Virus record (IMG/VR): IMGVR_UViG_3300045971_000364
Location: 1 to 46,350 of that record
Reading direction: 5' to 3' (one strand)
Source: a virus
DNA length: 46,350 nt
Shown: positions 24,003-43,125 of the stretch, piece after piece
Layout of the letters: every line of letters begins with the position of its first letter
How positions within the stretch are numbered: the first letter of the stretch is position 1
Translations under genes and position numbers: made by a program
The notes under the pieces: generated by a model
The model's database searches: none
Told to the model about the DNA's origin: nothing
Seen by the model: the letters and a program-made list of their open reading frames with translations, nothing else

Positions 24003-24827
24003 TTATCCTACCCATTTTGCGAACAATCCGACTTCGGCGTGCTGACCACCTTCCTCACCATGGTACAGTCTTACATCGGATCCGCGCACAGCATTGACAA
24101 CTTCTGTGTTGGATGTTGTTATCGGAAACGAGAAGAAATGATATAGCGAGTTGTTCTTCGTTTTCTGTCCGAGATACGCGCCGCCGAGGTTCATAATCCG
24201 ATCAATCGTTTTCTCGGCTCGTTCATTACGGTCAATGATCATTTGCTCTGCGTGAGTTCGGGCTCGTTTCGGAGCATTCGTCGTGGTGATAACCTGATCC
24301 ATTACTCTGAGATAACCGGATACCTCGACACCAGGTAGTGTGGCCAGATTCACCCAGTTTTTTCTGCCGGCTGGAGTCTGACTGCTTCCTGAAATGAGAG
24401 TGAGCTTTAGTATAGTAAGGGCTATGCCGTATAGAGCGAATCCAATTCCTTTGCCGCGATAAGCTTCGTCAGTGGTGATGATGGTTATTTTATAGGCTTT
24501 GAACGGAGTAGGCGCCATATAGAGTTGTAGTCGCCCGATCATTTGCGGCCCATTGGGATTTGCGTGCCAGTCGGCCATATCGTCATAAAATTTCTCATCA
24601 TCGTCGTAGTGATAATACTGCGGGCGCGCCCGCTTACCATTGGGGTCGATAATGGAGATTTTGATATGATCACCGAGGGATTCAACCTGATAGGTGTATC
24701 CACTTCCACCTGGTAGCGGATGCTGTTGATCCGAAGTTATTTTGAATCCGGTGAGCGATTCTCTTCCACCTTCGTAATCGTAGGAAGTAAGTCGTTCTAT
24801 CTCAGCAAGGAACTCTTTTGCCCTCAT
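24003..24827 (-). CDS. GNAT acetyltransferase with capsid-tag-like N-terminus
   Basis: A 274-residue protein starting MRAKEFLAEIERL; the EFLAE part has an L-A-E prohead-protease-type site. A GNAT domain follows, with the acetyl-CoA motif TDEAYRGKGIGFALYGIAL in the middle (shown in part). The C-terminal 100 residues are charged and have no recognised domain. It is the last gene of the long late-type operon, in ATGA overlap with the Nudix gene. Predicted to acetylate a host target if injected; the target is not visible. Confidence 0.8.
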   Translation of the reverse strand: MRAKEFLAEIERLTSYDYEGGRESLTGFKITSDQQHPLPGGSGYTYQVESLGDHIKISIIDPNGKRARPQYYHYDDDEKFYDDMADWHANPNGPQMIGRLQLYMAPTPFKAYKITIITTDEAYRGKGIGFALYGIALTILKLTLISGSSQTPAGRKNWVNLATLPGVEVSGYLRVMDQVITTTNAPKRARTHAEQMIIDRNERAEKTIDRIMNLGGAYLGQKTKNNSLYHFFSFPITTSNTEVVNAVRGSDVRLYHGEEGGQHAEVGLFAKWVG

Positions 24828-25306
24828 TTCAGCAGATACTCCTTGATCGTATCTACAGACGCCGGATCATTCAGCAGAGTAATCATGCCAGGGTGTAGTG
24901 GTTTCGGCCATTGTCCGAACTTGAACCACGAAGAACCTTGGGTCTCCCAGTCAAATTCAGGGGCAAACTCACTTGCCACCAATGCTAAAAAGTTGTGATA
25001 CTCGAATCCAGATGAGTGCCTGAATACAAATAGCGGGACAAGCTTCATTGGGCCGTCGTAGCCTGCCTCTTCACGCACCTCTCGCTTTGCAGCCACTTCA
25101 GGTGCTTCGCCGGCATCAATGGCTCCGCCCCATGTGCCCCAAGTATTTGGTTGTTCAACTTGAGATGAGCGATGTGACAGGCACAATCGTCTTGTGTCCA
25201 TTGCCATGAATACGCATCCGGCTGCCTTCGCGCCCCAGAAACCTGTTTTTTCAAGGGCTGCACGGTGCTCAGCCTCGGATTCAAAAATAAATTCGTATGC
25301 TCTCAT
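24824..25306 (-). CDS. Nudix hydrolase with capsid-tag-like N-terminus
   Basis: A 160-residue protein starting MRAYEFIFESE (I-F-E cleavage-type site). The complete Nudix box G-x5-E-x7-REVREEAGY lies at residues 61-83. Nudix enzymes hydrolyse nucleoside diphosphates linked to another group, such as NAD, ADP-ribose, Ap4A or mRNA caps. If packaged with an ADP-ribosyltransferase (35747-36625) it might process NAD or ADP-ribose; this is inference. It overlaps the GNAT gene and follows the first kinase-like gene by a few bases. Confidence 0.9.
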   Translation of the reverse strand: MRAYEFIFESEAEHRAALEKTGFWGAKAAGCVFMAMDTRRLCLSHRSSQVEQPNTWGTWGGAIDAGEAPEVAAKREVREEAGYDGPMKLVPLFVFRHSSGFEYHNFLALVASEFAPEFDWETQGSSWFKFGQWPKPLHPGMITLLNDPASVDTIKEYLLK

Positions 25307-25309
25307 CGG

Positions 25310-25972
25310 TTATCTTGACAAGAATGGATCGTTGATGACAATATGGCCATCGGAGCCGAGCATGAAATTACCACTGTGTAGATCAAGTTGGAAGCGGCCG
25401 AGCTTGGCTATAGTGGCCAACTCATTGATTGTGTCCCAAAGTAAGTTGAATCCCTTGGTGCCAAGGTGACTAAGAAGTTCAGCACCGGCGCGGTTGTAGC
25501 GATTTCCGTCAGGATCATATTTATCGTAATCGGAACTATTACTCATTACCATATTTATATACCGTTGTTTTCTGACTTCCTCCTTGTAATATCTGGCTTG
25601 TCCGACGAGGATTTCCAGTTGATCACCCCAGGAGATATTGGTGAATTCAAATAGTCGTTCCATTCTTATCTGTAGATAGGTGTTGCCATCAAAATAGAAG
25701 GTTTCCCATCCACTGAACTGTGGTAGAAATGGATTGTCTTGGTGGGTGTGGCAGTAGTCAGCAAATACCTTGAAAATTTTCTGGTCTAGGGTAAGATTTG
25801 TTCCTGATCCATATTGTGTTCCAAATATCTTCAGAACCATTCCGGTTCCAGGTTCAAGAAAGGCCGCTGCATCGGCACCTTCTCCACCCAATTGGCGATA
25901 CCCTTTCGTCCTCATTATATCAAGGAGTCTCGATGGCAGTTCAGACTCAACCAAAAATTCTTTTGCTCTCAT
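25310..25972 (-). CDS. Kinase-like protein 1 with capsid-tag-like N-terminus
   Basis: A 220-residue protein starting MRAKEFLVESE. Residues 33-50 form an N-lobe-like Gly/Ala-rich stretch ending in MVLKIF (K48 as candidate ATP-binding Lys). The catalytic loop is D197-L-H-S-G-N202 and the metal-binding motif is IVINDPF (D215), like the DFG/DxD of protein-kinase-fold enzymes. It is small for a kinase and lacks an obvious extended activation segment. The gene at 25972-26649 is a close paralogue and 33352-34062 a more distant one. Targets might be host proteins or small molecules. Confidence 0.75.
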   Translation of the reverse strand: MRAKEFLVESELPSRLLDIMRTKGYRQLGGEGADAAAFLEPGTGMVLKIFGTQYGSGTNLTLDQKIFKVFADYCHTHQDNPFLPQFSGWETFYFDGNTYLQIRMERLFEFTNISWGDQLEILVGQARYYKEEVRKQRYINMVMSNSSDYDKYDPDGNRYNRAGAELLSHLGTKGFNLLWDTINELATIAKLGRFQLDLHSGNFMLGSDGHIVINDPFLSR

Positions 25973-26649
25973 CAGAAGTTTCCTGACCAGAACGGATCGT
26001 TGATGACGATTTCACCATCAGATCCGAGCATGAAATTCCCGCAGTGTAGGTCAAGTCTGAAACCACCGTGTCCAGCTATAATTGCCAGATCATGGATGGT
26101 GTCCCACAGTAGGTTGAAGCCCTTGGTACCAAGATGTGTCAGCAGTTCAACACCGGCGTTTTCTTCATCCTTTGAATCCTCAAAGCCCTCATCGTCTGCG
26201 TAATTATCGGAATCATAATCCATTACATTATCAAGATATCGTTGTTTCTTGTATGGTTCATTGGAATATCTGGCCGAATTAGCGATGCCTTCCAGTTGAT
26301 CACCCCAAGAGGCATTGGTGAATTCAAACAACCGTTCCATGCGGATTTGTAGATATGTGTTACCGTCGAAGTGGAAGGTTTCCCATCCGAAGAACTGTGG
26401 CAGGAACGGATTATTCGGGTTAGCCATGCAGTAGTCAGCAAATTCTTTGAAAATCATCTGATCGTGTGTCATGACTTCTGAGCCATCCCGTGTTCCAAAT
26501 ATCTTCAGAACCAGCCCGGTTCCTGGCTCAAGGAAAGCAGCAGCATCAGCGCCGGGTTCTCCCAATTGGGTATACCCTTTCCGCTTCATCAGATTGATGA
26601 GAACCAGGGGTATATCGTCCGACTCAACTAAAAATTCTTTTGCTCTCAT
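25972..26649 (-). CDS. Kinase-like protein 2 with capsid-tag-like N-terminus
   Basis: A 225-residue paralogue of the neighbouring gene, with the same start MRAKEFLVES, the same FLEPGTGLVLKIFG segment, RMERLFEFTN, and the loop DLHCGNFMLGSDG then IVINDPF. The main differences are an acidic insert in the middle and the Cys in the loop. ATG 26649 in an ATGA overlap is preferred over the longer frame from 26685. Tandem duplication is clear; different substrates are possible. Confidence 0.75.
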   Translation of the reverse strand: MRAKEFLVESDDIPLVLINLMKRKGYTQLGEPGADAAAFLEPGTGLVLKIFGTRDGSEVMTHDQMIFKEFADYCMANPNNPFLPQFFGWETFHFDGNTYLQIRMERLFEFTNASWGDQLEGIANSARYSNEPYKKQRYLDNVMDYDSDNYADDEGFEDSKDEENAGVELLTHLGTKGFNLLWDTIHDLAIIAGHGGFRLDLHCGNFMLGSDGEIVINDPFWSGNF

Positions 26650-27389
26650 CGCAGTTCCACTTCCTCTCTGTCGTCTTTCCCCCACATGCGCCCGGGCGTA
26701 ATAGTCAGGGCAACGATCTGTGGTGGCAGTCCTCGACGAGGAGGACTTCTGTGTTGTAGGAGCATTCCGATATTCATCTGAGGATCATACACCTGGCAGA
26801 CTTGCCCTGGGGCAATGGTGTTCATTATAAGTTCGCGGTTTCTGACGATTTTTTGTAGGACTTTCTCTACTTCTTCATCTCTGATCGGGCGATATCCTTC
26901 GCGGGTTTGACGCTCCACGGTGTGCGGGTTGATTTCCAGAGTGGCAACTGGCATAGTCCCCTTACCATACATATTTCGCTTGATGATGATGGGACTAAGT
27001 CCAACTGATTCAAAAATCTCATGATGCTGTTCGCCGTATATCTTGATATATTTCCCAGCCATCATATCTGCCATAGCTTCAATAGGACTGCCGGGATACG
27101 ATGCTCCTGGCTTGATCATGTTCAACTGAGCTTGGCGAGTATGAACCAGTTCATGGAAGATCGTTCTGAAGATATCCACAAGGTTGCGATTTTTGACATA
27201 CACCCAGATGGTGTTGTCACTTGGGTTATTGGCACCGGTATGATGGTTATTCTGTGCGTCCTCTGTGTCCTGACTTAGATTGAATTTAGGATATGGCTGC
27301 TGAATATTGAGCGTCTTGATGGACCAGTTGATGAAGTCTTGGACCTTACTCTGATCAATGTTTTCTCTGATGAATTCTCTGGCTCTCAT
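26646..27389 (-). CDS. HExxH metalloprotease-like protein with capsid-tag-like N-terminus
   Basis: A 247-residue protein starting MRAREFIRENI (I-R-E site). The zincin motif HELVH is at residues 79-83 and a downstream SPIEAMADMM supplies the likely third ligand, E104, as in HExxH...E metallopeptidases. The remainder has no recognised domain. If injected it could cleave a host protein; alternatively it could act on a phage protein in the head. It is in ATGA overlap with both neighbours. Confidence 0.8.
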   Translation of the reverse strand: MRAREFIRENIDQSKVQDFINWSIKTLNIQQPYPKFNLSQDTEDAQNNHHTGANNPSDNTIWVYVKNRNLVDIFRTIFHELVHTRQAQLNMIKPGASYPGSPIEAMADMMAGKYIKIYGEQHHEIFESVGLSPIIIKRNMYGKGTMPVATLEINPHTVERQTREGYRPIRDEEVEKVLQKIVRNRELIMNTIAPGQVCQVYDPQMNIGMLLQHRSPPRRGLPPQIVALTITPGRMWGKDDREEVELR

Positions 27390-27826
27390 ATAGCATCCCT
27401 TATTTGATCAAGGGAGATGCCAGCGTGGCGATAGCCATTGACCAGCCGTTGTATGTATTTCTCGGATGGCTGCGAGTCAAGTAGATTGTCGCGTGATTCT
27501 GGTGTCATGGTATAAATGTTAGCCTCGTATTTAGTGCCTTGACAATATGCCGGAACGGTCTTGCGATCATAAAAATCGGGGTAGCCCTCAACGCGATCTA
27601 GCTCAGCCATCATCTTGCGGTTAATAGCCCAAAGACTGCCTTCCAATTGAGAACCAGCCTGTGGGAACACATTGGCGAACGACAGTAATTCAAACGCAAA
27701 GTTACGAACCACTGCCTTACCAATGAGCGTGGCACCAGGCATAAGCTCCGGATCGGTAAGCATACCGTATGCCAGGTAATGGATCGGTGCTTCACCGTCC
27801 TCAAGGATGATTTCGCGTATTAGCAT
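27386..27826 (-). CDS. Gamma-glutamylcyclotransferase-like protein with tag-like N-terminus
   Basis: A 146-residue protein starting MLIREIILEDG (I-L-E site; a looser version of the tag). YLAYGMLTDPELM corresponds to the YGSN loop of the AIG2/GGCT fold, GSLWAINRKMMAELDRVEGYP carries the conserved Glu, and FYDRKTV follows. GGCT-like enzymes release 5-oxoproline from gamma-glutamyl compounds. It lies directly downstream of two amidoligase genes, and GGCT-like and amidoligase genes are known to be associated, so a gamma-glutamyl amide pathway is plausible. Confidence 0.8.
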   Translation of the reverse strand: MLIREIILEDGEAPIHYLAYGMLTDPELMPGATLIGKAVVRNFAFELLSFANVFPQAGSQLEGSLWAINRKMMAELDRVEGYPDFYDRKTVPAYCQGTKYEANIYTMTPESRDNLLDSQPSEKYIQRLVNGYRHAGISLDQIRDAI

Positions 27827-27829
27827 AGT

Positions 27830-29746
27830 TTACAATCGCAGGTTCCATTGACGGCCACTAGACCTCACCGCCGGTGCCGGCTTCTTGCCCTTCAACTGTT
27901 GCTTCCTTAGCGAGAGGATCAGCTTGGCAACACGAGGATCATTGGCGGGAATAGTCACGCGCTTATATATTCCATAGCCGGCTTTTTGACCGCGCCAGCT
28001 GGTGTAGATCGGTTGAATAACATGCTCGGCGCGAGACATATTCATCCCCTTGAGGGTGTCTATATCTTCCTGTGTCCCTGGAATCACCAAGACAGTAGCA
28101 CAGTTAGCAATGTTACCTTTCCGTATTTTCTCCTCCAGCGCCGGGAATCCCGAGTCTAACTTAGAAACAATTTCCTCTCTTGCAGGAACACTGTTTGGAG
28201 TGACAATATACGAATACTCGCCATCGTCCAATGACTTTTTAGCAAGAAGATCAAACCTAGTTCGTTGGTTGTTTCTGTATACGCTCATCTCTATAGCAGG
28301 AACACCTTGCGTTCTAATTGTATCTATGAAGCCGGCGTCTGTTACTGGCTGAGACATTTTCGCCAGTGCCGTTTTGTATTCGTTCGCATAGAGTGTAGGG
28401 TCACTGGCAATGATCATGGCGCGCACAAAGCGTCCGACGACATTGAATATTGATGTGTAGTCACTAAGGTAGTCACCGCCGGCATGTCTGAATGACACCC
28501 ACTTGCCGTTGTAGCTGATACTGGCCATGTGGTCTTCGGTGTGTTCTTTTGCGACACCGAGAAGATACTTCATGTCAAGCTTCGTCGTTTGTTTTTTCCC
28601 GCGACCTACTTGTGTGAGTCCAGCATCCGGAGCATCTTTGCGAACATTCCTTTCGGAACTATCAGCATAGTGACTATCCTCGCGACCGAATTGTTTCAGC
28701 ACATGCAGGTCACCTGTGAATACAGCAAGTTTCAACAGGTCAAGCTTCGCCGGAATACTGACATTGATATGAAGGCCAGTTGTGTCGTTTGTGTAGATGC
28801 CAAGACGACCTGCCATGGCATAGAAGTTTTTCAGTGCTGCCACTGCATCTTTAGCAGGAAGTGGAGGGCTGACAATTTCAGCGATGGCGTCCTGATCCGA
28901 ATTCGGATTCAGGCTACCATCGGGTTCAATATACCACGAGGTCATGTTCTTCTTCTTTTCGTGATACTCCTGGAACACAATGACATGGGCGTTCATAGCC
29001 TTTTCTAATTCCGGCTTCAGAACCTTGGTGCCCTTGTTGTAGTTAGGATAATCTTCGTAATCGTCGTAATCACTATCAACAAAGTCAGCAAGCCCAAGTA
29101 GCTCCCACGCTGCTTTTGGATCGAATGTGAAATACTGAGATACGCCAACGTGGCCGTCACGATCAACGCCAAAAACAAACTCAAGCATAGCTGACCATTT
29201 TGTTTTATATGTATACTTCTCCAAAGCATCCACTGCCTTTTCAGTAGCCGCGCCGGCTCTGTAGGCTGGCCATGACGCATCGTTCACGAAGGATTTGGCA
29301 AAACCCATTTCCGGTGACTCACGACTGAAATGGTGGGCATCCTTCATAGCTTTTTTAGCATACTTCAACCGAAATTTTTCAGGAATCTTTTCGTATGTCG
29401 CCTTCAGGTTGGCATGCTTCTCGTCCATGAATGCCTTGTATGCCACTGACATGTTGGGGTATTTACCAGGGCGTTTCATTTTGAAGCACCCATCAAATTC
29501 TTCTGGAGTTATTTCAATAACATCCTTGCTATTCAATACATAGTTATCAACGATGGTTTGTTCTACATAAGCAGGGGTTATTTTCTCGCCTCGGTCCATG
29601 TTCAGAGTTTTCTCAGGAACAAAGCACTCAAACTCAAATCCGACAAGAACACCTTGGCCATGGCCGGTATCAATTGCTTTGTTGAATTCGCCCGGGTTCA
29701 TCGGGGCTTCGTCTAGTGTTGGATTGGTGAGTTCTGAATAGCGCAT
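27830..29746 (-). CDS. Amidoligase-family protein 1 with tag-like N-terminus
   Basis: A 638-residue protein beginning MRYSELTNPTLDEAP; L-D-E is a prohead-protease-type site. The amidoligase (ATP-grasp-like, glutamine-synthetase fold) features are visible: GVLVGFEFECFVP at residues 32-44, IEPDGSL, AEIVSPPLP, TGLHINVSIP and WVSFRHAGGDYL. Such enzymes join a carboxyl group to an amine using ATP. The protein is larger than a lone amidoligase domain and has a C-terminal part of unknown fold. Start 29746 (or the adjacent ATG at 29749) lies just after a late-type element. It is a paralogue of 29868-31817. Confidence 0.8.
   Translation of the reverse strand: MRYSELTNPTLDEAPMNPGEFNKAIDTGHGQGVLVGFEFECFVPEKTLNMDRGEKITPAYVEQTIVDNYVLNSKDVIEITPEEFDGCFKMKRPGKYPNMSVAYKAFMDEKHANLKATYEKIPEKFRLKYAKKAMKDAHHFSRESPEMGFAKSFVNDASWPAYRAGAATEKAVDALEKYTYKTKWSAMLEFVFGVDRDGHVGVSQYFTFDPKAAWELLGLADFVDSDYDDYEDYPNYNKGTKVLKPELEKAMNAHVIVFQEYHEKKKNMTSWYIEPDGSLNPNSDQDAIAEIVSPPLPAKDAVAALKNFYAMAGRLGIYTNDTTGLHINVSIPAKLDLLKLAVFTGDLHVLKQFGREDSHYADSSERNVRKDAPDAGLTQVGRGKKQTTKLDMKYLLGVAKEHTEDHMASISYNGKWVSFRHAGGDYLSDYTSIFNVVGRFVRAMIIASDPTLYANEYKTALAKMSQPVTDAGFIDTIRTQGVPAIEMSVYRNNQRTRFDLLAKKSLDDGEYSYIVTPNSVPAREEIVSKLDSGFPALEEKIRKGNIANCATVLVIPGTQEDIDTLKGMNMSRAEHVIQPIYTSWRGQKAGYGIYKRVTIPANDPRVAKLILSLRKQQLKGKKPAPAVRSSGRQWNLRL
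29664..29712. repeat. 49-bp direct repeat, copy 1
   Basis: Perfect match to 31747-31795. It encodes the conserved start of the two amidoligases (EAPMNPGEFNKAIDTG). The copies are about 2.1 kb apart in the same orientation. In this copy a 12-base insertion lies just outside the repeat on the start-codon side. Confidence 0.9.
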
Positions 29747-29750
29747 CATG

Positions 29751-29758
29751 TATTTATC
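29751..29758 (-). promoter_or_regulatory. Late-type promoter element (GATAAATA)
   Basis: Minus-strand GATAAATA ends four bases before ATG 29746 (one before the alternative ATG 29749). No Shine-Dalgarno is present. Confidence 0.6.
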
Positions 29759-29761
29759 ACC

Positions 29762-29867: not shown

Positions 29868-31817
29868 TCATCTACGCTGTTTTTTCTCACGGTAGTATTG
29901 CTTGCGAATTTCAAGCATCATTTTTCTTGCTCTTGGGTCAGTTGCCGGAAGGTGCCCCAGACTTATGGCGTAAAAGCCGTCCTTGGTGCGGTATCTGTTG
30001 AGAGTATTCCACACGGTGTTCGGGTAATTTCTCCGGAGAAACAGAGCCACTTGGTATTCATTCTTGGGCATAAGGATCACAGTGCCAAACTTATCTGGTG
30101 TAGCGGTTTCGGCCCATGTCATGAAAGAACCACCTGACACTGCCTTATCACTCATCTTTTGTTTTGCTGTTGGACTATTTGGAATGAATTCCAGCTGAGC
30201 CGGCGTGATGCTCTGGTATGATGGCATCGTGCCGGATGCGTTGGCTACAAACTTGAACATCTTTTTCAGATCAGGATTGCCGTCACCTTTATACGCAAGT
30301 TGAACCTCAATGACAGGTAAGCCTTTGGTCATGATATAATTCACAGTCGCCTGTAAATCTTGCGGAACAGTAACCTCTGGGGCGGCCATTTTGGCTACTG
30401 CTGCATTGTATTCATTCGCATAAAGAGCAGGGTCACTGGCGATGATAATGGCGCGAACAAATCTTCCAACTACATTGTAGATTTCAGTGTAGTCTTTTAG
30501 GTAGTTGCCGCCGGCATGTCTGAAAGACACCCACTTGCCGTTATAGCTGATGCTGGCCATGTGATCGTTGCTGATTTCTTTGGCGATTCTTTGTAGCAGC
30601 TTGGAATTTATCTCAGTGTTTTGTTTTCGCTGTCCGAACAGATTTGGATCCTTCTTAGGACCTTTATCAACTGATATAGCTCGGCCGTTCGCCTGTTGCG
30701 GAATCTCTCTGGTGACGCTTTGTGCGTAATCGCTGTTCAGACGATTGAAGTTTTTCAGCACATACTGGTCACCGGCAAACACAGCCAACTTCAGTATGTC
30801 AAGAGTCTCCGGGATGCTGACATTGATGTGAAGCCCGGTTGATTGGTTGGTGTAGATACCAAGTTGTCCTGCCATGGCATAGAAGTTTTTCAACGCTGTA
30901 ATGGCGTCTTTAGCTGGCAGTGGAGGGCTGACAACTTCAACAGTTCCGTCACCGTCGTTGTCTGCTTCCAACGATCCATCTGGTTCAATATACCAGTCTG
31001 TCATGTTCTTTTTATGCTCGTGATAACTATCAAACACAATGACTTTTCTTCCTTGTGTTTTCTCAATGATTGGTGTTAGCACTCTTGCAGCACCTTGGTA
31101 GTCATCGTCATCATCACCGAAGTCATCTACATAATCCTTTAGATCCAACTTATTATATACGACATCAGGGTCAAAGTCAAGAAAGCGCGAGATGGCATTG
31201 TAATCTTGTCTAGGAAATACAAACTTGAACAGATCAACATAGCAGGTGTCTCCTTCTCTGGCCAATGTTAGCATTTTCTCTCCCAGCTCAGATAAGGCCT
31301 TGCTGCCACCTTTTTCTCTTTTATTGTAGTTGTGCATCACCAATCTACCTAGATGGTAGGCAAAGTTTATTTGCTTATTGGCGCCTGGTTGATACCGATC
31401 ACTATCACCTGATGCTTCCTTAGCATTAGCATTTTCTTTGGCTCGTATGGCGGCAGGGATTTTGTCAAACATCACCTTGATCTTTGCTATAAGATTCTGA
31501 ATATATGCGTCATACGCCTCGACCATATTAGGATATTTGCTGTTGCCTTGGGCAAAGGTAAATAACTTGTCAAACTTCTTCGGTGAAAAACTGCTCACAT
31601 ACATATTTTCAACATAGTCATTTTCACCGAAGATGTCTTCCACCTCCTCTTTGGTGTGAGTTGGTCCGACACCGCGTGATCCGACAATAGTTTTTTTAGG
31701 GACAACACATTCAAACTCAAAGCCGACAAGAACGCCCTTGTCATGCCCGGTATCAATTGCTTTGTTGAATTCGCCCGGGTTCATCGGGGCTTCGTTGGTG
31801 AGTTCTGAGTAGCGCAT
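29868..31817 (-). CDS. Amidoligase-family protein 2 with tag-like N-terminus
   Basis: A 649-residue paralogue of amidoligase 1. It begins MRYSELTNEAPMNPGEF; relative to its paralogue it lacks four residues (PTLD) and so lacks the L-D-E site. The same enzyme motifs are present: GVLVGFEFECVVP, IEPDGSL, EVVSPPLP, TGLHINVSIP and WVSFRHAGGNYL. The two proteins diverge in their middle and C-terminal parts. It starts four bases after CATAAATA, without a Shine-Dalgarno. Predicted ATP-dependent carboxylate-amine ligase; substrate unknown. Confidence 0.8.
   Translation of the reverse strand: MRYSELTNEAPMNPGEFNKAIDTGHDKGVLVGFEFECVVPKKTIVGSRGVGPTHTKEEVEDIFGENDYVENMYVSSFSPKKFDKLFTFAQGNSKYPNMVEAYDAYIQNLIAKIKVMFDKIPAAIRAKENANAKEASGDSDRYQPGANKQINFAYHLGRLVMHNYNKREKGGSKALSELGEKMLTLAREGDTCYVDLFKFVFPRQDYNAISRFLDFDPDVVYNKLDLKDYVDDFGDDDDDYQGAARVLTPIIEKTQGRKVIVFDSYHEHKKNMTDWYIEPDGSLEADNDGDGTVEVVSPPLPAKDAITALKNFYAMAGQLGIYTNQSTGLHINVSIPETLDILKLAVFAGDQYVLKNFNRLNSDYAQSVTREIPQQANGRAISVDKGPKKDPNLFGQRKQNTEINSKLLQRIAKEISNDHMASISYNGKWVSFRHAGGNYLKDYTEIYNVVGRFVRAIIIASDPALYANEYNAAVAKMAAPEVTVPQDLQATVNYIMTKGLPVIEVQLAYKGDGNPDLKKMFKFVANASGTMPSYQSITPAQLEFIPNSPTAKQKMSDKAVSGGSFMTWAETATPDKFGTVILMPKNEYQVALFLRRNYPNTVWNTLNRYRTKDGFYAISLGHLPATDPRARKMMLEIRKQYYREKKQRR
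31747..31795. repeat. 49-bp direct repeat, copy 2
   Basis: Perfect match to 29664-29712, at the 5' end of amidoligase 2. Confidence 0.9.
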
Positions 31818-31821
31818 TGTA

Positions 31822-31829
31822 TATTTATG
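31822..31829 (-). promoter_or_regulatory. Late-type promoter element (CATAAATA)
   Basis: Minus-strand CATAAATA ends four bases before ATG 31817. It overlaps the stop codon of the small gene upstream. No Shine-Dalgarno precedes the ATG. Confidence 0.6.
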
Positions 31830-31899
31830 CCGGCGAGTAAGGATTCAACGGCCGGTCCTCTTCGCCGTTTTGTTCTGGATATACTGGGTATTCGTTCAT
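31825..31899 (-). CDS. 24-residue acidic mini-gene
   Basis: A 25-codon frame whose ATG (31899) is in an ATGA overlap with the stop of the GNAT-ParB gene and whose TAA lies inside the late-type element. The product starts MNEYPVYPEQNGEEDRP and is Pro/Glu-rich and disordered. The coupling suggests translation; function is not guessed. Confidence 0.4.
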   Translation of the reverse strand: MNEYPVYPEQNGEEDRPLNPYSPA

Positions 31900-32816: not shown

Positions 32817-33355
32817 TTTAGTGTCGGCTTTCCGAATACTGTCTCGCGTAGCATGATGCCGTTAGAGAGTTTTCTGGTGTATGTATCTTCGTCAACCATC
32901 TTCAGATGGGGGTCATTGAATAGTCGCATCAGGAAGCGTTGGTCGCTCACCGGAGTCATGCTCAATCTTTTCAGGATGTGCTCCATGGCATCAGACGATT
33001 CAATCCACCAGCCCGGTTTTGTCAGCAGGAACTGGACCTTGGCAATGGCTCGCTCTTTGCTGATCTTCTGTCCGTCATGTCCAATGCCCTGTATCTTGTA
33101 TCCTTTCCATGCTTCGCCAGATCGCTCAGCACGGTAGAACACTGTGGCATCAACATCAGGATCCTGGTCCCAGTCAATGACCTGCCAGTCACTTGGCACT
33201 ACATCCTGAATGCTCTTGACAAAGCTGCCATGTGGTGTCAACGAATAGGCGTGCTTGACCAGATCAACAAGCTCTCCGCCGACTTCATGTTTATCAGCAT
33301 TGGAGACCAGCATCGTCCATTCATTTTTCGGCAGAGTAAATTCGTCTATTCTCAT
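32813..33355 (-). CDS. Late protein of unknown function with tag-like N-terminus
   Basis: A 180-residue protein starting MRIDEFTLPKNEW, a looser version of the tag without a clean L-x-E site. The core contains GYKIQGIGHDGQKIS, a WWIESSDAMEHIL segment and LFNDPHLKMVDEDTY. I have seen this pattern in other phage proteins but cannot name a function. It sits between the third kinase-like gene and the GNAT-ParB gene with ATGA overlaps on both sides. Confidence 0.7.
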   Translation of the reverse strand: MRIDEFTLPKNEWTMLVSNADKHEVGGELVDLVKHAYSLTPHGSFVKSIQDVVPSDWQVIDWDQDPDVDATVFYRAERSGEAWKGYKIQGIGHDGQKISKERAIAKVQFLLTKPGWWIESSDAMEHILKRLSMTPVSDQRFLMRLFNDPHLKMVDEDTYTRKLSNGIMLRETVFGKPTLK

Positions 33356-35750: not shown

Positions 35751-36625
35751 GATATTTTATCCCACTTGTCGCACAGGGCGTTCTTCAGATCAACAGTGTT
35801 CGCAATCTTGTTGCGTAGCATATATGTGGTGATCTTGTTCGCCGTGTCATATTCTTTGCCAGACTCTGGCTTTCTGGCATTGCTCAGGTCAATAGCCAGG
35901 TTGTTATCTTCGTTGCGATATCTGCTGCCATAATATACGAGGTTATAGCGCAGCTTCTCTCCAACTTCGCTCAGGTCTTCTTTACGATTCTTGTAGATCA
36001 GTTCAAGCCATGCACCGATGTAGTTCCTGCCTGGCCTGCGCGTGTATCCTGCTGATGTTGGGCCTCGGAGAAGATCACCTGATGCCGATGGTTGAACAGC
36101 CTTTCGTGTATCCTGCAGTCTCCATGCATTTTCGTCAGTGTAGAGGAACGCCGGTATTTTACGAGTCTTAGCCAGAATCATGATGTTTCTTACTTCAGCC
36201 GATCTGTTTTCCATTTGTGACTTCAGTAACAAATGAATGGCTGTGACACCGTCTATTGGCATACTTGGCTCACGACTGAATACACGATCTTCGGCTTCGC
36301 GGGTTCTTCCGCTACCAGGATGGTCCCACATACGCTCCCAGTAATCAACTGGTTTAGTTCTGTATCTGTTGTTCAGCCAGTTGCCATCAATGACAAACAT
36401 ACACGCTGATGTGCCGACATAACGATGATAGTCACCGACCTTAGATCGTGTCAGACTGAGGAAGAATGGGAATCCAGCTGGGGCATGTGTCTGTTCAGAT
36501 TTGTTGCCGGTGATGTTGGACATCTGAAACTGACCAGTCTTCAGTATCTTCAGCGCACTATAAGTGGAACAATAGTGATACAAGACTGCCGATGCCGACT
36601 CTGTAAGGAAATCAGTGGCTCGCAT
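35747..36625 (-). CDS. Possible ADP-ribosyltransferase with capsid-tag-like N-terminus
   Basis: A 292-residue protein starting MRATDFLTESA (L-T-E site). It has an ART-like order: LYHYCSTYSALKILK with H17 (NAD-binding His/Arg position), FFLSLTRS at 55-61 (Ser-Thr-type strand), and E110-A-E112 in REAEDRVFS (the ExE-like catalytic pair). The spacing suits a small ART domain; the C-terminal 150 residues are of unknown fold. T4 packages the ADP-ribosyltransferase Alt and injects it to modify host RNA polymerase, so an analogous role is attractive. The assignment is from pattern, not alignment. Confidence 0.55.
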   Translation of the reverse strand: MRATDFLTESASAVLYHYCSTYSALKILKTGQFQMSNITGNKSEQTHAPAGFPFFLSLTRSKVGDYHRYVGTSACMFVIDGNWLNNRYRTKPVDYWERMWDHPGSGRTREAEDRVFSREPSMPIDGVTAIHLLLKSQMENRSAEVRNIMILAKTRKIPAFLYTDENAWRLQDTRKAVQPSASGDLLRGPTSAGYTRRPGRNYIGAWLELIYKNRKEDLSEVGEKLRYNLVYYGSRYRNEDNNLAIDLSNARKPESGKEYDTANKITTYMLRNKIANTVDLKNALCDKWDKIS

Positions 36626-38881
36626 TTAGTCCACCAGTTGAACCATTAGGTTAGAGTGATTCTCTGGGGCGATGCCAAGCTCGTCGGCCACTTCAAGCGC
36701 CGTTGCAAGGGCTCCGTTGCTCAGTGATCCTCCAGGTGCCTGGAACGGTTCACCAAGATGTTCTCCGGTGCGACGATCAACGAGCGTCCAATTCACAAGC
36801 GCATCTCCAGGTTCAGGTTCTGCGGCTGCCCTGCGGGCATTTGTCTGTTGCGTGTTCTGTTGTGTGCGTGATTGTGCCGGCTGATGTTGCCATGCTGCGG
36901 CTGAGTTTTGTTGCGGGGGCACTGGACCGCGTGTGGCGCGACGGATAGCTATTTGGTCTTGAACAGCCATTGATATTCCTTGCTGATCCATATATTGCGA
37001 ACCAAAGATGCTGGCTCCCGCAATGCTGTCAGCATAAATCGGCGGCCCAACATTTTCACCTGTCCTTAGATTGAATAACTGCCACTTCTGTTCAGTGTTT
37101 GCGGTAGGCATTCCATGGAAATCTTTTGGATCGCCATCTCTCCTCTTTAGCACAACCGTCAGTCTAGAATCTGGAAAGGTATCGGGCAACTCCCACTCCA
37201 TACGCGCTGCCATCTTTGCGGTCTGCGGGGAGGTAGCGTGAACATCTAATACGCGCGGCATGGCGCTGCTGCATGTGACACTATACACCCCTTCAACCTC
37301 TTTCTCGGTTCGCTTAGCTTCCCGTCTATTCTGAATAGTTCTGATGAAGTTTTTCATTCCCATCATGGTCAAATCTCCGGAGGCATACTTAGCGAAGATA
37401 GCTATAGGATCTGCTCCGCCTTTCGGGGCAAGCAGTTTGTATAGCTTCTTCATGTATTCTTTACGATATTTCTGCGGATCACCGGCGGCATCAAGTGCCA
37501 CTACAGCGCGATACAGAGTGTTCTCAATAAGGTCAAACTTTTCGTCAAGCCAGTCACCGCCAGGAGACCTGAACTCAACATATCCGCCTTTGTTATTGAC
37601 GCTGACAAACTTCTGGGTGTCGCCTGAGTGGATAGACTCAGATGCGAGTTTATCCAAGCCTTGGCGCATGGTATCAAATAGATTGGCAACTCGTTGCTCC
37701 GTCATGTTATTGGCCTGCTCCTTGAGTTTATCCAATGCTGACCGACAGTAAGTATTTCCTTGTCGCTCAAATTGTTCCAGGATGTGATTGTCACCGAGTA
37801 GCAGAACCAGCTTGACATAATCCATGGTGCTTTTATCAACACCAGGAACGCTCACATTGATGTGGAGTCCAGTCGATTCATTGGTGTAGCAACCCTTTCT
37901 ATCGGCCCAGTTTTTGATTTTATGTAGATCACTGATCATCTTGACCAGAGACAACGGCGGGCTGATGAACTCAAGCCCGGCATCACCTTCATCATTCGTA
38001 TCATCAAGACTACCATCTGGTTCCAGATTGTAGGTGTTTGGTGCTCTCTTGCTCTGATGATATGCGCCGTGATTTACTGGTCGGTCGATCATTCTTGAGA
38101 ACTCGTCTGCTACTGAGGCGACATCAATAGAAGATTCGCCAGATGGTTCCCACTGGGTGTAATGTGGCCAGGTGACTGTAAAATTGTTCTCAATGTCAGA
38201 CATGCGGTTGTAGCCTTCATCATCTAACCAGTTCTCTACATCAAACAAATCATCCCCATCATCATAGAACTTCTCTTTGACACGCTCATAATCACTACCT
38301 TCATTGGTCCATTCTTCATCGACAAGAGTATCAATCTCTCTTTCGGCGACATCTACGGCTCTCAACCAGTTGTTATGTGCCTCTGAGTCTTCCATTTCTT
38401 TGCTTGAGGTTTTGTCTTTGTTGCGGAGGTATGCTTCTTTGGCGTCATCTTTCTCTTGTGCTGTGAAGCCAAGATCATTCATTGCGCGGTTAATGGCTTC
38501 GTCCTGGTCAAAGTCTTCTTCCATGTCTGCTTTCAGAAGATCCTTACCTTCATCATGCCACTTGGTGAGCATTGCTTCATCTCGCCATTCCATATAAGCC
38601 TCATCAAGGTCATTGCGCAATCGTTGTAGGTCTCTACGGCTCATGTTCCCGTCACCACCACTGAAAAAATCAATGATGCCATCGATGTCGTAGCCGGTCC
38701 GTTCGTCCATCCCGTAATCTGGTTCAGGTTCAAAGTCTGAACCATCGTCCTCCGATTCAACATCAGGGACATACATCTCAAACTCCATACCAGCTTTTGC
38801 GGGAATTTTGGCAACAAGGGACTTCAACGCATTTGGCGTCATTGCGACCTCATTCAACGGCTGGACTTCATGTATCTTCAT
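36626..38881 (-). CDS. Amidoligase-family protein 3 with tag-like N-terminus
   Basis: A 751-residue protein from ATG 38881 (MKIHEVQPLNEVAM; L-N-E site); the longer frame to 38965 covers the late-type promoter and the membrane gene. Amidoligase motifs are KAGMEFEMYVP, LEPDGSL, LEFISPPLS, TGLHINVSVP and YVEFRSPGGDWL. A long acidic segment separates the first motif from the rest. The C-terminal 150 residues have a low-complexity Gln/Ala stretch and two short similar segments, WQLFNLRTGENVG and WTLVDRRTGEHLG. It is the most divergent of the three amidoligases. Confidence 0.78.
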   Translation of the reverse strand: MKIHEVQPLNEVAMTPNALKSLVAKIPAKAGMEFEMYVPDVESEDDGSDFEPEPDYGMDERTGYDIDGIIDFFSGGDGNMSRRDLQRLRNDLDEAYMEWRDEAMLTKWHDEGKDLLKADMEEDFDQDEAINRAMNDLGFTAQEKDDAKEAYLRNKDKTSSKEMEDSEAHNNWLRAVDVAEREIDTLVDEEWTNEGSDYERVKEKFYDDGDDLFDVENWLDDEGYNRMSDIENNFTVTWPHYTQWEPSGESSIDVASVADEFSRMIDRPVNHGAYHQSKRAPNTYNLEPDGSLDDTNDEGDAGLEFISPPLSLVKMISDLHKIKNWADRKGCYTNESTGLHINVSVPGVDKSTMDYVKLVLLLGDNHILEQFERQGNTYCRSALDKLKEQANNMTEQRVANLFDTMRQGLDKLASESIHSGDTQKFVSVNNKGGYVEFRSPGGDWLDEKFDLIENTLYRAVVALDAAGDPQKYRKEYMKKLYKLLAPKGGADPIAIFAKYASGDLTMMGMKNFIRTIQNRREAKRTEKEVEGVYSVTCSSAMPRVLDVHATSPQTAKMAARMEWELPDTFPDSRLTVVLKRRDGDPKDFHGMPTANTEQKWQLFNLRTGENVGPPIYADSIAGASIFGSQYMDQQGISMAVQDQIAIRRATRGPVPPQQNSAAAWQHQPAQSRTQQNTQQTNARRAAAEPEPGDALVNWTLVDRRTGEHLGEPFQAPGGSLSNGALATALEVADELGIAPENHSNLMVQLVD

Positions 38882-39296
38882 TTTTGATCCTAGTCGAGTA
38901 TTTATCAGGCTTCCAAACATGGTAAATACTCTCCTCGACGGTCCTTGCCAGTATCCATATCTCACCGACTACCGCTGACACAAACAGCAGACCAAGTGTT
39001 TCAGATGGTGTTGCCAGCATACTTGCCGTGAACAGTAATGAGAATACCCATATAGATATTATTGATGTCAGAAATTGAATGATGACACGAGATTTTTGTA
39101 GCACAAGTTCAACGGCCCTAGACAGAATAGAACCTGACAAAACAAGCATCCAGAAGTGCTCAGGAAATATCTCAGTAAGAGCCTTCAATGCCTGATCTGG
39201 CTGGTAGTGAATCGCAATTATGCTGACAAGCATTGTCAAAATTGAGAATACTTTAGTTGGTCGCATACCCTCAGAATATATTGAATGGAATGGCAT
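38868..39296 (-). CDS. Membrane protein A of a four-gene cassette
   Basis: A 142-residue protein with about four hydrophobic segments. Its C-terminal half (SIIS-IWVFSLLFTASMLAT, then VGEIWILARTVEE) is similar to that of the gene at 39963-40418, so the two are paralogues. ATG 39296 shares its A with the upstream TAA. Position between packaged-type proteins suggests a membrane or virion-entry role, or lysis; no known holin signature is visible. Confidence 0.7.
   Translation of the reverse strand: MPFHSIYSEGMRPTKVFSILTMLVSIIAIHYQPDQALKALTEIFPEHFWMLVLSGSILSRAVELVLQKSRVIIQFLTSIISIWVFSLLFTASMLATPSETLGLLFVSAVVGEIWILARTVEESIYHVWKPDKYSTRIKNEDT
38899..38906 (-). promoter_or_regulatory. Late-type promoter element (GATAAATA)
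   Basis: Minus-strand GATAAATA, 17 bases before ATG 38881, with a weak AGGAT in between. It lies within the 3' part of the membrane gene upstream. Confidence 0.55.
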
Positions 39297-39589
39297 TATG
39301 CTCTCCTGTCCATGGCGATATAGATGAACGCAGCCTCTACAGATGTTTTGTACACCGTCCAGACTATATCAACTGCCCAGGTGCCGGCATAGTTTGCCTC
39401 AACGAAATAAGAATACCAACGATATCCCTGCGCGCCGATGAGAAACACCGATAACCAGACGAAAATAATCATGGTTCGCCGGTCACTGTCTCGTTGTTCT
39501 ACTCTGCGACGAACAAGACAGGCGTAGATTGCGACGAATGCCAAAATTATAGGAAGTAATTGGAATACGGCGTGTAGTAGTTCTTTCAT
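39296..39589 (-). CDS. Small membrane protein B
   Basis: A 97-residue protein with two or three transmembrane segments (LLPIILAFVAIYACLV; MIIFVWLSVFLIGA; WAVDIVWTVYKTSV less hydrophobic) and a basic loop (RRRVEQRDSDRR) between the first two. It is coupled by overlap to both neighbours. It is holin-sized, but I see no holin family signature. Confidence 0.65.
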   Translation of the reverse strand: MKELLHAVFQLLPIILAFVAIYACLVRRRVEQRDSDRRTMIIFVWLSVFLIGAQGYRWYSYFVEANYAGTWAVDIVWTVYKTSVEAAFIYIAMDRRA

Positions 39590-39966
39590 TGCTTATGCTC
39601 CTCGATATTCAGCAGATGATCAATTTCCGCCTGTATATGATCCGGTACCGGGACTGTGTGAGTGTTCAGCAGACCGCGCATATGGATGATCACTACGATC
39701 AGGCGAGTAATTTTGACTGCCTGAGTATGAATGAGTTGATCCATCGCCTCTACTTTTTCTTCCAGCTTACGCATACGCTCATCGCGTATGACATTCTGTT
39801 TCTCATATGAGGTTTGAATGTCGCCGACCAAAGCCTGTTGCGTTGATGACATGGTGCCATCGAGCTTGTCCCTCTTGAACATAGCCAAAAGCTTTGGCAG
39901 GAAGAGCGCTCCGCTAACCAGACTTCCGGCGATCATGCTACCTATAGTTAGTAAATCGTTGTTCAT
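39586..39966 (-). CDS. Membrane-anchored coiled-coil protein C
   Basis: A 126-residue protein with an N-terminal transmembrane segment (residues 5-28) and a long charged coiled coil (MRKLEEKVEAMDQLIHTQ). The layout is spanin-like (Rz) in outline, but a C-terminal His/Glu helix and the lack of a partner lipoprotein argue against a firm call. It overlaps the next gene by four bases. Confidence 0.6.
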   Translation of the reverse strand: MNNDLLTIGSMIAGSLVSGALFLPKLLAMFKRDKLDGTMSSTQQALVGDIQTSYEKQNVIRDERMRKLEEKVEAMDQLIHTQAVKITRLIVVIIHMRGLLNTHTVPVPDHIQAEIDHLLNIEEHKQ

Positions 39967-40418
39967 GTGCGCCTCTCAAATCTGCCATTTATCTTATCGT
40001 CAATGGTCCTATATAGGATCCACACCTCAAGAGCCATTGGGATGAGAACTAACATGCTCATCCCGTCAATTGGTGTCATAATCATGCTGCCTGTCATAAC
40101 AATGGACCAGGTCCAGATTCCGATGATTGGGCCGGTGTATGTTGCTATCTCATTTACTATTGTGGCGAAGCGATCAGCGGGGACGATGAATAATTCAATA
40201 ATCCGGCATATGGCATGAAATGATAAAAATATCACCCAAATATACCATGGCATCATCTGAATCAAGAAGGACAGATCATCATGCGGATCATGACTTGGTT
40301 CCATGCATACCCCAATGACACCAAGTAACGATGCGACTATCGCAAGTAACTTGATTGGTCTGGTGCTATCTCGGAGTATTGACTTGATTTTGGTCCAAGC
40401 TGATATTTGACGAGGCAT
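39963..40418 (-). CDS. Membrane protein D, paralogue of A
   Basis: A 151-residue protein from ATG 40418 (MPRQISAWTKI), preferred over 40442 because AAGGTG lies five bases upstream. It has about four hydrophobic segments. GIWTWSIVMTGSMIMT and ALEVWILYRTIDDKI align with the gene at 38868-39296. It directly follows the 896-residue late protein gene. Confidence 0.7.
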   Translation of the reverse strand: MPRQISAWTKIKSILRDSTRPIKLLAIVASLLGVIGVCMEPSHDPHDDLSFLIQMMPWYIWVIFLSFHAICRIIELFIVPADRFATIVNEIATYTGPIIGIWTWSIVMTGSMIMTPIDGMSMLVLIPMALEVWILYRTIDDKINGRFERRT

Positions 40419-40419
40419 A

Positions 40420-43110
40420 TTACACCTTACGGAAGACATCAATCTTCTTCAGTTCATCTCGGTGAATTCTGTCCTGCGCCTTTTCTTGTCCTCGAAAGTG
40501 CATGATCGCCTGGTGAATTGATTTGACTGGAGCCGCCTTGACTTTTTCAGAATAGTCCCTTACCTTGCCAATTGAAAGCTCGTCAAGTTTTTCATCCGGT
40601 TGTTCCGCATCAGCTTCACCATGAGCTTCTTGCCATTGCTTGAACGCTGCTCTTGCGGAGATTGGCTTGTCAGACTCGGTGCCCATGAATGTCAGGAACG
40701 ATGGTTGTTTCTTCAGATCAATATTCCAACCGCCTTGACCGTCTTTGACATCGACTCGGCATCCGTCTTCCGTCTGTTCCATACCTGTCACTGCGAATGT
40801 TCCTACTGGTGTGCTTGGATCAACTGGGTTGCTTCTGGCAGTCACTCTGATGACCAACTGTCCTTCTGCTTCGTCCAATGGTTCTTCGTAGCCGTAGTCA
40901 CCATCTTTGAAGTGATCATAATATGCGTACATATCGTTGAAGCCGTTCAGACGACAAGCCTTGTCAAGTATGTCACCGATCCTGAATTCTTGAACGCCAC
41001 CCTTCTTCAACCACGGTGCCATGTAATCAATTGGGTCACCATCTGGGAAAATCTGTCCGACGACTGCTTCAAGCTTGCGCCATACTTTTGAGTAGTCTTC
41101 CTTAGTAAGACCGTTCTTGTCACGGACAACACGAGGACCAGCTGGTGCTTTCGGTGGAATTGGATTGCCTTGGCGATCAAGCGGAACTCCACCTGGACCT
41201 GCTATCATTCTTCCTTCGTCAACTTCTGGGTTTGCGTCCGGGGCTATTGATCGAACTGCCATGTGTGCTTGCTGTCCTTGCAATTTAGCCATTGCCCGGT
41301 GGATTCTGGCGACTTCTTTTGGATATTTGTAGCGACCTGTCTCAATCTCCCCAAGCCGTTTTTTGTAGTAGGCCATCATGTAGTCAGGTGTCATGTATGA
41401 TGAATTCCCACCGTTGTCAGCACCACCGTATTTCTCTGTGTATCGACGACCGGTGTGTAAATTCATCCAATCACCGACGTTAGTTTTCACCCAGTTATTA
41501 TCTCCTCTGGTTTCGTCAACTTCTTGTTCAGGTTGCTTAGGAGCAACTTCAGGCACGACACTTTCGTAGTCGCGCATCGTCAGTGTCTTACCACGGGCAC
41601 CAGCAGCAATCAGTTTTTCAGCAAGATCATGCAGGTCCATGTCTGTGTTGGCATCTTCCCGAGCGAACTCAAGCAATCTGATCAACAGAGGAATATCTAC
41701 TTTGACGGTGTCAGTTGGATTCACGGAGACTTCTGGTTTGTTCAACAGACCAGGATGATACTGACGACCTTTGCCTGGAGCACGGATCAAATCGGATTCG
41801 GTGACTTCTGCTTCGGTCACGTTTTTCCTCAACAACGGAAGACGATCTTCTACACCAAACGTCATTACTAATTCTTTTAGTGGCGCGGCTAGATAACGAC
41901 GATTTTGGTCGGTAAAGGCATTGTCATAACCTTCTTCAAAATCAGCGTTTGACTTTGTTCCTGTAGGATAGGGATTACTCGGCTCTTCTTTTTGTTTGGC
42001 AGTAATAGCATAATACGCAAACTTACCAAGGGCCTTGGCCTTGGGGTCATCACCACCGGTGCTTTCCCCCATATTTCTTGGATCGGAATGAACTTCGTCA
42101 TGTGGTTTCCACTGGCCGTCTATCTTTCGTTGTGCCCTACCTTTGCTGAATTCGGCTTTGAAGATTGGCTGATCTTCCGGGGAGTAGTGTGATCTGACAT
42201 ATTCGGCATTCCATGGAAAATTGTTATACCCATTATGCCAACCTTGCTTCTTTGGATCTAATTGAAAGGGGACAGACTCATCTCCTAGGGCGCCTTCAGT
42301 CACACTTTGCTTCAGGCAATGTTTTAGTTCTGCTACGGCTTCTTCATATGAATCATATCCGGAGTTATCTATGTTATTGGCGTAGCACTTCATATACCAG
42401 TTACCATTGCCAGGACTTGCTTCGGGGTCAATACCAACTTCTCCCACTGGCTTGCCGTTCTTCTTGAACACCTTTGTAACTTGGTCTGCTGATTCGTTGA
42501 CGAGGTTGATGCCCTCAATGATTCCTGGTTTTCTTTTCATATCAATAACTTTCTTGAGAGAGGCAACATCACCAGTTAGTTTGTCAAGGGTTCTGTTTTG
42601 TTTTTCGTCATCCTTCTTGGCATGAGACAACGAGCGTTGAACCCATTTCTTGAACGCAAGTTCGGGATTCTCAGCCGTGGTGTAATGATCTTTGGCGTTC
42701 TGCATCACCGCGGCGAGTTCGGCGTCAGTAGTGCGGGTAAGGTCTGCGAGTCGTTTGTCCTCGGCCGAGCCTTCCCACAGACTTTTTAGTTCGCCAGTTG
42801 ATGGGAGTAAGTCCTCGCGGTCTATAACTTCCTTTTGCCCATTGTTAAATTTGACCTGAGCTTTATCGCTGGTGAGAGCCAGCAAAACCACATGACCGTC
42901 ATAGCCACGGATGAAACAAGTCTCTCCAACCATGGGTTCACGCCCTCCGAGGCCTTCTTCAACAGACTTACTATTAGGGAACTTCTCGCTGGTGCTGATT
43001 CCAGAGAATATGGAGCCTTTACCGCGGCGTTGAATGGGTCCGGCGGCTACAGCAGCAGGTGCTATTGCGCCCGACGTTGTTGATGTTTCTGTTAGGTGCG
43101 ATATTTTCAT
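40420..43110 (-). CDS. 896-residue late protein with capsid-tag-like N-terminus
   Basis: A large protein starting MKISHLTETST (L-T-E site). It is made of charged, low-complexity linkers between small folded segments, such as GETCFIRGYDGHVVLLAL near residue 60, GNWYMKCYANNIDNSGYDSY, and DYSKVWRKLEAVVG with FRIGDILDKACRLNGF in the last third. Many L/I-x-E triplets occur in the linkers, fitting a packaged, protease-processed protein. No enzyme motif is recognised. It could be an internal head or scaffold-type protein. It starts seven bases after CATAAATA. Confidence 0.7.
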   Translation of the reverse strand: MKISHLTETSTTSGAIAPAAVAAGPIQRRGKGSIFSGISTSEKFPNSKSVEEGLGGREPMVGETCFIRGYDGHVVLLALTSDKAQVKFNNGQKEVIDREDLLPSTGELKSLWEGSAEDKRLADLTRTTDAELAAVMQNAKDHYTTAENPELAFKKWVQRSLSHAKKDDEKQNRTLDKLTGDVASLKKVIDMKRKPGIIEGINLVNESADQVTKVFKKNGKPVGEVGIDPEASPGNGNWYMKCYANNIDNSGYDSYEEAVAELKHCLKQSVTEGALGDESVPFQLDPKKQGWHNGYNNFPWNAEYVRSHYSPEDQPIFKAEFSKGRAQRKIDGQWKPHDEVHSDPRNMGESTGGDDPKAKALGKFAYYAITAKQKEEPSNPYPTGTKSNADFEEGYDNAFTDQNRRYLAAPLKELVMTFGVEDRLPLLRKNVTEAEVTESDLIRAPGKGRQYHPGLLNKPEVSVNPTDTVKVDIPLLIRLLEFAREDANTDMDLHDLAEKLIAAGARGKTLTMRDYESVVPEVAPKQPEQEVDETRGDNNWVKTNVGDWMNLHTGRRYTEKYGGADNGGNSSYMTPDYMMAYYKKRLGEIETGRYKYPKEVARIHRAMAKLQGQQAHMAVRSIAPDANPEVDEGRMIAGPGGVPLDRQGNPIPPKAPAGPRVVRDKNGLTKEDYSKVWRKLEAVVGQIFPDGDPIDYMAPWLKKGGVQEFRIGDILDKACRLNGFNDMYAYYDHFKDGDYGYEEPLDEAEGQLVIRVTARSNPVDPSTPVGTFAVTGMEQTEDGCRVDVKDGQGGWNIDLKKQPSFLTFMGTESDKPISARAAFKQWQEAHGEADAEQPDEKLDELSIGKVRDYSEKVKAAPVKSIHQAIMHFRGQEKAQDRIHRDELKKIDVFRKV

Positions 43111-43117: not shown

Positions 43118-43125
43118 TATTTATG
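43118..43125 (-). promoter_or_regulatory. Late-type promoter element (CATAAATA)
   Basis: Minus-strand CATAAATA ends seven bases before ATG 43110. It directly adjoins the stop of the upstream nucleotidyltransferase gene. Confidence 0.6.

Follow-up and report, generated by a model that had tools for sequence, protein, structure and literature searches.

A short N-terminal tag shared by unrelated enzymes of an uncultured T4-superfamily phage is a probable capsid-targeting sequence

We analysed a linear IMG/VR virus fragment of 46,350 bases from an uncultured lake phage (IMGVR_UViG_3300045971_000364; hereafter the window). Fifteen genes of a minus-strand block at 24003-43110, and one plus-strand gene at 9709, encode proteins that start with variants of a single short peptide, or tag, whose common form is the nine-residue MRAxEF(I/L)xE. 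The tag and its degenerate forms very probably serve as a capsid-targeting sequence (CTS) that acts as in the internal proteins of phage T4, in which case the enzymes bearing it would be packaged, cut and injected. The phage is a member of a T4-superfamily jumbo lineage. Its B-family DNA polymerase, encoded at 20973-23681, is ~75-80% identical to that of the best-matching IMG/VR contigs, 48% to that of Sinorhizobium phage Phosso and 47% to that of Agrobacterium phage Atu_ph07. The 46,350 bases contain no tRNAs and no head genes. For comparison we used loci from relatives (labelled L001-L381, with L169 from Phosso) and from T4 (L382, NC_000866). One relative, the 335-kb G001, carries a complete head module with capsid protein, scaffold, S77 protease, acidic core protein, small core protein and portal.

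The block, in order of position, begins with a GNAT-like protein (24003-24827, start MRAKEFLAE/IERL, the slash marking the end of the tag; GNAT E value 0.0011, slightly below the cut-off). It is followed by a Nudix hydrolase (24824-25306, MRAYEFIFE/SEAE, E 1.4e-14), a kinase-like protein (25310-25972, MRAKEFLVE/SELP; phrog_15752, T7-type protein kinase, E 1e-7) and its paralogue (25972-26649, MRAKEFLVE/SDDI; ATG at 26649, in an open reading frame (ORF) that is open from a GTG at 26685). Next are an HExxH metalloprotease-like protein whose family is large in the relatives (26646-27389, MRAREFIRE/NIDQ) and a gamma-glutamyl cyclotransferase-like (GGACT) protein with the weak tag MLIREIILE/DGEA (27386-27826, E 5e-12), for which the relative L004 retains MLIREIIMEAGEA. 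The tags lie outside the domains, Nudix beginning at residue ~27 and GGACT at residue 19. The middle of the block encodes an amidoligase-related protein (27830-29746, tag MRYSELTNPTLDEAP), an amidoligase (29868-31817, MRYSELTNEAP; Amidoligase_2, E 1e-7), a GNAT protein with a C-terminus that by eye is ParB-like (31896-32816, MRASEFLPE/TINPDIL), a weakly tagged protein without assigned function (32813-33355, MRIDEFTLPKNE; 72% orthologue in L004), a third kinase-like paralogue (33352-34062, MRAVEFIET, ATG at 34062) and a multi-module protein (34059-35750, MRALEFTDK) with two GNAT-like modules that elsewhere are free-standing and tagged. The remainder comprises a putative KptA/DarT-like ADP-ribosyltransferase (ART) (35747-36625, MRATDFLTE/SASAVLYHY), an amidoligase-related protein with the weak tag MKIHEVQPLNE (36626-38881), four small untagged proteins, hydrophobic by eye (38868-40442), and an 896-residue modular protein with the weak tag MKISHLTE (40420-43110), which holds nine (L/I)xE sites and gave no Pfam match. 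The plus-strand gene (9709-11055) encodes a GP88-family protein (E 2.5e-25) with the weak tag MKIQELFE.

A sequence-only reading of this DNA had described the tagged bodies as unrelated, and most of its assignments hold to varying degrees: Nudix, GGACT and amidoligase pass Pfam cut-offs, GNAT ranges from marginal to good, and the T7-kinase-like call comes from PHROG. For its metalloprotease call the HExxH motif, and for its ParB call the likeness, were read by eye only. The protein it termed ART-like (292 residues) gave an AlphaFold2 model of pLDDT (predicted local distance difference test) 82 with VIA Z scores of 10.1 to yeast Tpt1 and 8.4 to DarT and a best Foldseek E value of 2e-3; by this model it has an ADP-ribosyltransferase fold. 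Its tag is modelled with low confidence, and Glu9 is invariant across 14 of 14 homologues.

Sequences of the T4 late-promoter type, (C/G)ATAAATA, stand upstream of five tagged genes in the window, and directly so at the four on the minus strand. On the minus strand, CATAAATA precedes MKISHLTE (43118-43125) and MRYSELTNE (31822-31829), and GATAAATA precedes MKIHEVQPLNE (38899-38906) and MRYSELTNP (29751-29758); on the plus strand, GATAAATA at 9659-9666, upstream of the gene at 9709, is the sole match in the window. These promoter-like sites fit late synthesis, which packaging would require. In L001-L381, TAAATA ends 4-7 nt before the ATG of many genes, tagged or untagged, and with this spacing late transcripts would begin at the start codon or close to it and be leaderless or almost leaderless. 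We rejected such transcripts as a feature of tagged genes because the spacing is equally common at untagged ones.

Every tag quoted in the sequence-only reading was found in the window, each at a gene start, and (L/I)xE, said to occur in most, lies within the first 13 residues in ~11-12 of the 16. We rate as strong the tags at 24827, 25306, 25972, 26649, 27389, 32816 and 36625, as intermediate those at 31817, 29746, 35750 and 34062, and as weak those at 27826, 33355 (MRIDEFTLP), 38881, 43110 and 9709. A strict pattern, M[RK]xx[ED][FL][LIVFMT]xE, matched 8 of 60 first ATGs in the window versus 0 of 378 internal ATGs (Fisher 8e-8). When the relatives' loci were included, all of them fetched via polymerase or portal and never via the tag, the counts were 54/2,337 and 0/16,163. 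The tag thus occurs at starts and is absent from internal ATGs, and is therefore not a product of chance. A DNA pattern scan of IMG/VR returned at least 124 sites; among the matches listed, 104 open a reading frame.

Across 175 distinct tags, M1, R2, A3, E5, F6, I/L7 and E9 each carry 3-4.3 bits, positions 4 and 8 ~1 bit, and residues past E9 no more than 0.5 bit, so the conserved signal ends at E9. Synonymous codons are mixed at Arg2, Ala3, Glu5, Phe6, Ile7 and Glu9, indicating selection on the peptide rather than on the DNA. Some weak forms are genuine, since the MKIHEVQPLNE protein has an orthologue in the relatives with the full tag MRALEFLNETQVLDEIDMSP. A seemingly tagged tail-tube protein in L260 was dismissed, since 41 open codons precede the match, which is internal and due to chance.

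We then scored 255 T4 starts with a profile built from 37 distinct tags of these phages, T4 not being in the training set. The two top ranks went to ipII and ipIII (8.4 bits); gp61.1 (MKTFKEFIKE) was third at 4.9 bits, 3.5 below the top, ipI ranked tenth, and the rest fell to zero or below. From its start, MKTFKEFIKED, the hypothetical 54-residue gp61.1 (T4 NC_000866 18966-19130; L382:467-631) is predicted to be an additional T4 internal protein. The first ten residues of T4 IPIII suffice for packaging, with residues 4 and 7 involved in targeting and 8 and 10 in processing (PMC9026906). Ip1-3, injected inhibitors of type IV restriction enzymes, have nothing but the leader in common, and the GmrSD restriction enzyme that they block differs from one to the next (PMC12373910). 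T4 Alt is cut at ITE-6 (PMC5694885).

The sequence-only reading had likened the tag to the starts of both the T4 internal proteins and Alt. The former do share an EF(I/L)xE-type start, but Alt has no (E/D)F(I/L)xE tag. As with IPI, IPII and IPIII (CTS MKTYQEFIAE, cleaved by gp21), we find a short N-terminal (E)F(I/L)xE peptide on unrelated proteins; we do not find the ten-residue length or a hydrophobic or aromatic residue 4, the common tag having nine residues, mostly R/K/T/S at position 4, and a retained Phe at the equivalent of residue 7. We therefore class it as a variant of the T4-type CTS. The two groups are further alike in the LxE/IxE grammar of their cleavage sites, predicted ones in our case, an S77 protease in the lineage, late-promoter-like sites and diverse bodies at variable loci. 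They differ in number, with 3-4 bearers per genome there against ~16 in 46 kb here, and in cargo, the bodies here often being enzymes and also being built into fusions as modules, with predicted cleavage sites where they join. Alt, processed at ITE-6 and LTE-619, shares with the window's putative ADP-ribosyltransferase the ART superfamily and an N-terminal propeptide of (I/L)xE type, predicted in the window, but belongs to the Alt/VIP2 family, whereas the window enzyme is by model of KptA/DarT-type fold and bears an (E/D)F(I/L)xE tag. The polyvalent proteins of Aravind and co-workers and the head ejection proteins of phiKZ and SPN3US are likewise packaged or predicted-packaged multi-domain effectors or protease-processed head proteins, but lack a short shared tag; SPN3US propeptides mostly exceed 100 residues and have A/S/G-x-E sites. 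The gp67-like prohead core protein of Phosso starts with the tag-like MRYNEFSKE (L169:17360-17602; Phosso 237360-237602).

Because the window fragment holds no head module, the question of a gp21-type protease, raised as a check by the sequence-only reading, is answered in relatives only. There is none in the 46-kb window; an S77 protease is present in G001 and in 5 of 5 large portal-picked relatives (166-364 kb). Each of those five carries 2-4 exact tags, and the reversed pattern gave 0 matches in 23 records. When the capsid proteins of 46 relatives were aligned to T4 gp23 (cut FLTE/AEIGG), the corresponding residues read LLAE/S, LLSE/S or LLNE/N with few exceptions, so that by alignment the propeptide would end in LLxE/(S/N).

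Tagged bodies also recur inside longer proteins, at 101 joints that we examined. At 58 of these, (L/I)xE lies within 5 residues of the tag-Glu position, compared with 8.5% elsewhere in the same proteins. After similar contexts were collapsed and full tags removed, 37 of the 70 remaining joints, drawn from 13 families (family mean 48%), had [LIVM]xE precisely in register, against a background of 1.6% per position, the families being coarse single-linkage groups that are not fully independent. Examples are SIEE/NFADGK, AVAE/NFADGK and QLNE/RATSVVFHY; usually the EF part is lost and the predicted cut site retained. The multi-module protein of the window has two such joints: LTE at residues 165-167 (35250-35258, minus strand), at or adjoining the tag position of stand-alone relatives, and ITE at residues 297-299 (34854-34862, minus strand), where SPEITE/MINPDIL corresponds in exact register to the stand-alone MRASEFLPE/TINPDIL. 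This pattern is as would be expected of a protease-processed polyprotein.

Evidence from virions comes from T4-like cyanophages. S-CREM2, which has an S77 protease and a published proteome of caesium chloride (CsCl)-purified virions (PMC10665884 Table 3), contains in its virion a SAM hydrolase, a kinase, a cytidylyltransferase and two proteins of unknown function, whose starts are MKDFDSFLEE, (V)KRFDAFLTE, MKNFSSFLTE, MKDLHSFLTE and MQTFSMFFSE. All 5 of its genes with T4-spaced CTS-like starts are in the virion list, versus 50 of 214 called ORFs (p 6e-4), under a pattern composed after its virion proteins had been seen. The pattern was then fixed and a prediction stated beforehand for S-SCSM1 and S-SZBM1: the named enzymes would be tagged, and most matches would be virion proteins. 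The enzymes were as predicted, the NMNAT of S-SCSM1 starting MKSFLQFLKE and annotated as a virion protein, and the cytidylyltransferase of S-SZBM1 starting MRFRQFIIE and present in its virion list. The authors of two cyanophage papers left undecided whether such enzymes are packaged or contaminants; the CTS-like tag favours packaging. These virion-associated regulatory proteins resemble our tagged proteins in being SAM hydrolase, kinase and NMNAT-type enzymes with an F(L/I)xE N-terminus in CsCl virions. They differ in mostly having the T4-length MKxFxxFLxE and in being few per genome, although MRFRQFIIE has the jumbo-phage tag length. No convincing tag was found in S-SM1, Syn9, S-PM2 or HTVC008M.

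Several observations weigh against a CTS role. The second part of the cyanophage prediction failed: only 2 of 7 ATG-start matches of two fixed patterns in S-SZBM1 and S-SCSM1 are known virion proteins (one of the unlisted matches, a 105-106-residue protein, is flanked by virion genes), and the S-CREM2 pattern was fitted after the fact. Compared with the T4 CTS, the common tag falls short by one residue and has no aromatic residue at position 4, which is important for T4 targeting (PMC9026906). The gp67-like core protein of close relatives starts MKLFEMFDxxxxGYQD, without a tag. An NMNAT/cytidylyltransferase-like protein of the window (45023-46051), which adjoins virion-type genes, is untagged, in contrast to the tagged proteins of like function in cyanophage virions. 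Such tags are all but absent from two jumbo isolates, CBB and Atu_ph07. To these are added the missing head module and protease in the window and the predicted nature of the start codons. In CBB, which has virion mass spectrometry (PMC5259590), the strict T4-spaced pattern gave 0 matches, and a loose pattern matched starts no more than internal ATGs, except for the scaffold protein MSKLDKFLNE, probably CBB_256. Atu_ph07, for which virion proteomics covers 131 proteins (PMC6102473), has a genome without strong tags.

Alternative explanations fare worse. The tagged proteins might be packaged and processed yet stay in the head as internal or scaffold components rather than being injected, as some small, basic or Cys-rich tagged modules that recur in long proteins could suggest; S-CREM2 ORF137, a virion protein of unassigned role, shares such a module. 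We find this unlikely: the bodies in the window can mostly be recognised as enzymes (Nudix, GGACT, amidoligase, kinase-like, ART fold), the set differs between close relatives, unlike structural genes, and in T4 the bearers of the same tag act as inhibitors that are injected. A peptide that docks its bearers to some non-capsid structure, be it replisome, compartment or partner enzyme, would account for the fact that many relatives have the block just upstream of their DNA polymerase gene. Yet tags also occur far from the polymerase (G001, 75 kb; G028-G032), the profile picks T4 internal proteins and no replisome proteins, joints that keep xxE but have lost the remainder of the tag are consistent with a protease site, and cyanophage tag bearers sit in virions; we regard docking as improbable. 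Least credible of all is a nucleic-acid reading, in which the genes share a translation-initiation region, a promoter or a recombination seam at their 5' ends and the peptide is a by-product. It could appeal to the late-promoter-like ATAAATA 4-7 nt before many tagged ATGs, but that spacing is just as frequent at untagged genes and the T4 cross-match is at the protein level; a shared nucleotide element as the cause of the tag is rejected by the free codon variation.

Packaging and processing, as the sequence-only reading had proposed, are thus well supported by independent lines: the blind T4 scan, the S77 protease in relatives, LxE in capsid proteins and at joints, and the cyanophage virion enzymes. 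For the window phage itself we infer packaging, cleavage, injection and an anti-host role, the last two by analogy with T4. Under the CTS interpretation, the tagged enzymes would be made late in infection; the peptide would dock them to the prohead scaffolding core, around which the shell would enclose them; a gp21-type prohead protease would cut after (L/I/V)xE, freeing mature enzymes among the DNA; and these would pass into the next host together with the genome, to act early as effectors. Where bodies are fused into longer proteins, an (L/I/V)xE at each joint would allow one targeted chain to give rise to several proteins.

The 201 tagged ORFs that we collected fall into ~40 body clusters not joined by BLAST. 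Their domains include GNAT, amidoligase, Nudix, GGACT, zeta-toxin/AAA kinase, muralytic domains and T7-like kinase, with no domain found in the majority. A recurring 123-residue tagged family and the kinase-like body had no match in 50,697 phage records. A separate ~200-residue family conserved in relatives (e.g. L089:10380-11006) begins with MKxFxxYLxES, which is a second form of the tag and is spaced as in T4 (F4, Y7, L8, E10); the family is also found in Atu_ph07 (84393-85160, MKTLQDYLTES).

Next to the block, 43126-44034 encodes a homologue of the virion protein ORF156 of S-CREM2 (E 5e-64). Its true start is probably MTTIKEIES (~44010), directly after GATAAATA; its C-terminal GYIPSNAEKNDPRF module stands elsewhere as a separate small protein, with ITE at the equivalent joint. 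Elsewhere in the window, genes for FolE (7e-61), QueD/PTPS (2.5e-14), a radical-SAM QueE-like protein and QueC (4e-18) cluster at 11602-17486, pointing to probable 7-deazaguanine DNA modification; the protein at 18294-19802, which had no Pfam match, may be a transglycosylase of that pathway.

In conclusion, CTS-tagged internal proteins are known as a class from T-even phages. New, in that the searchable literature (most subscription papers lying outside that search) gave no description of them, are the shorter nine-residue tag, the scale on which it is used, its enzyme cargo and the polyprotein-like joints with their sites. On a wider proposal our judgement is evenly balanced: a modular, secretion-like system in which any body joined to the nine-residue tag would become injected cargo, heads would take in fusions as polyproteins, which the prohead protease would split at their (L/I/V)xE joints into several separate effectors, and one genome may encode injected enzymes by the tens, with different sets in close relatives. 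Until now, T4 internal proteins have passed for a minor peculiarity of T-even phages, three to ~ten proteins in number. The same targeting logic appears here on ~40 unrelated types of body, many of which are enzymes, in uncultured T4-superfamily phages that are abundant in fresh water. With the tag, injected proteins could be predicted by a rule based on sequence. It may also explain why puzzling "regulatory proteins" turn up in cyanophage virions, and it marks the enzymes that bear it as new candidates for counter-defence.

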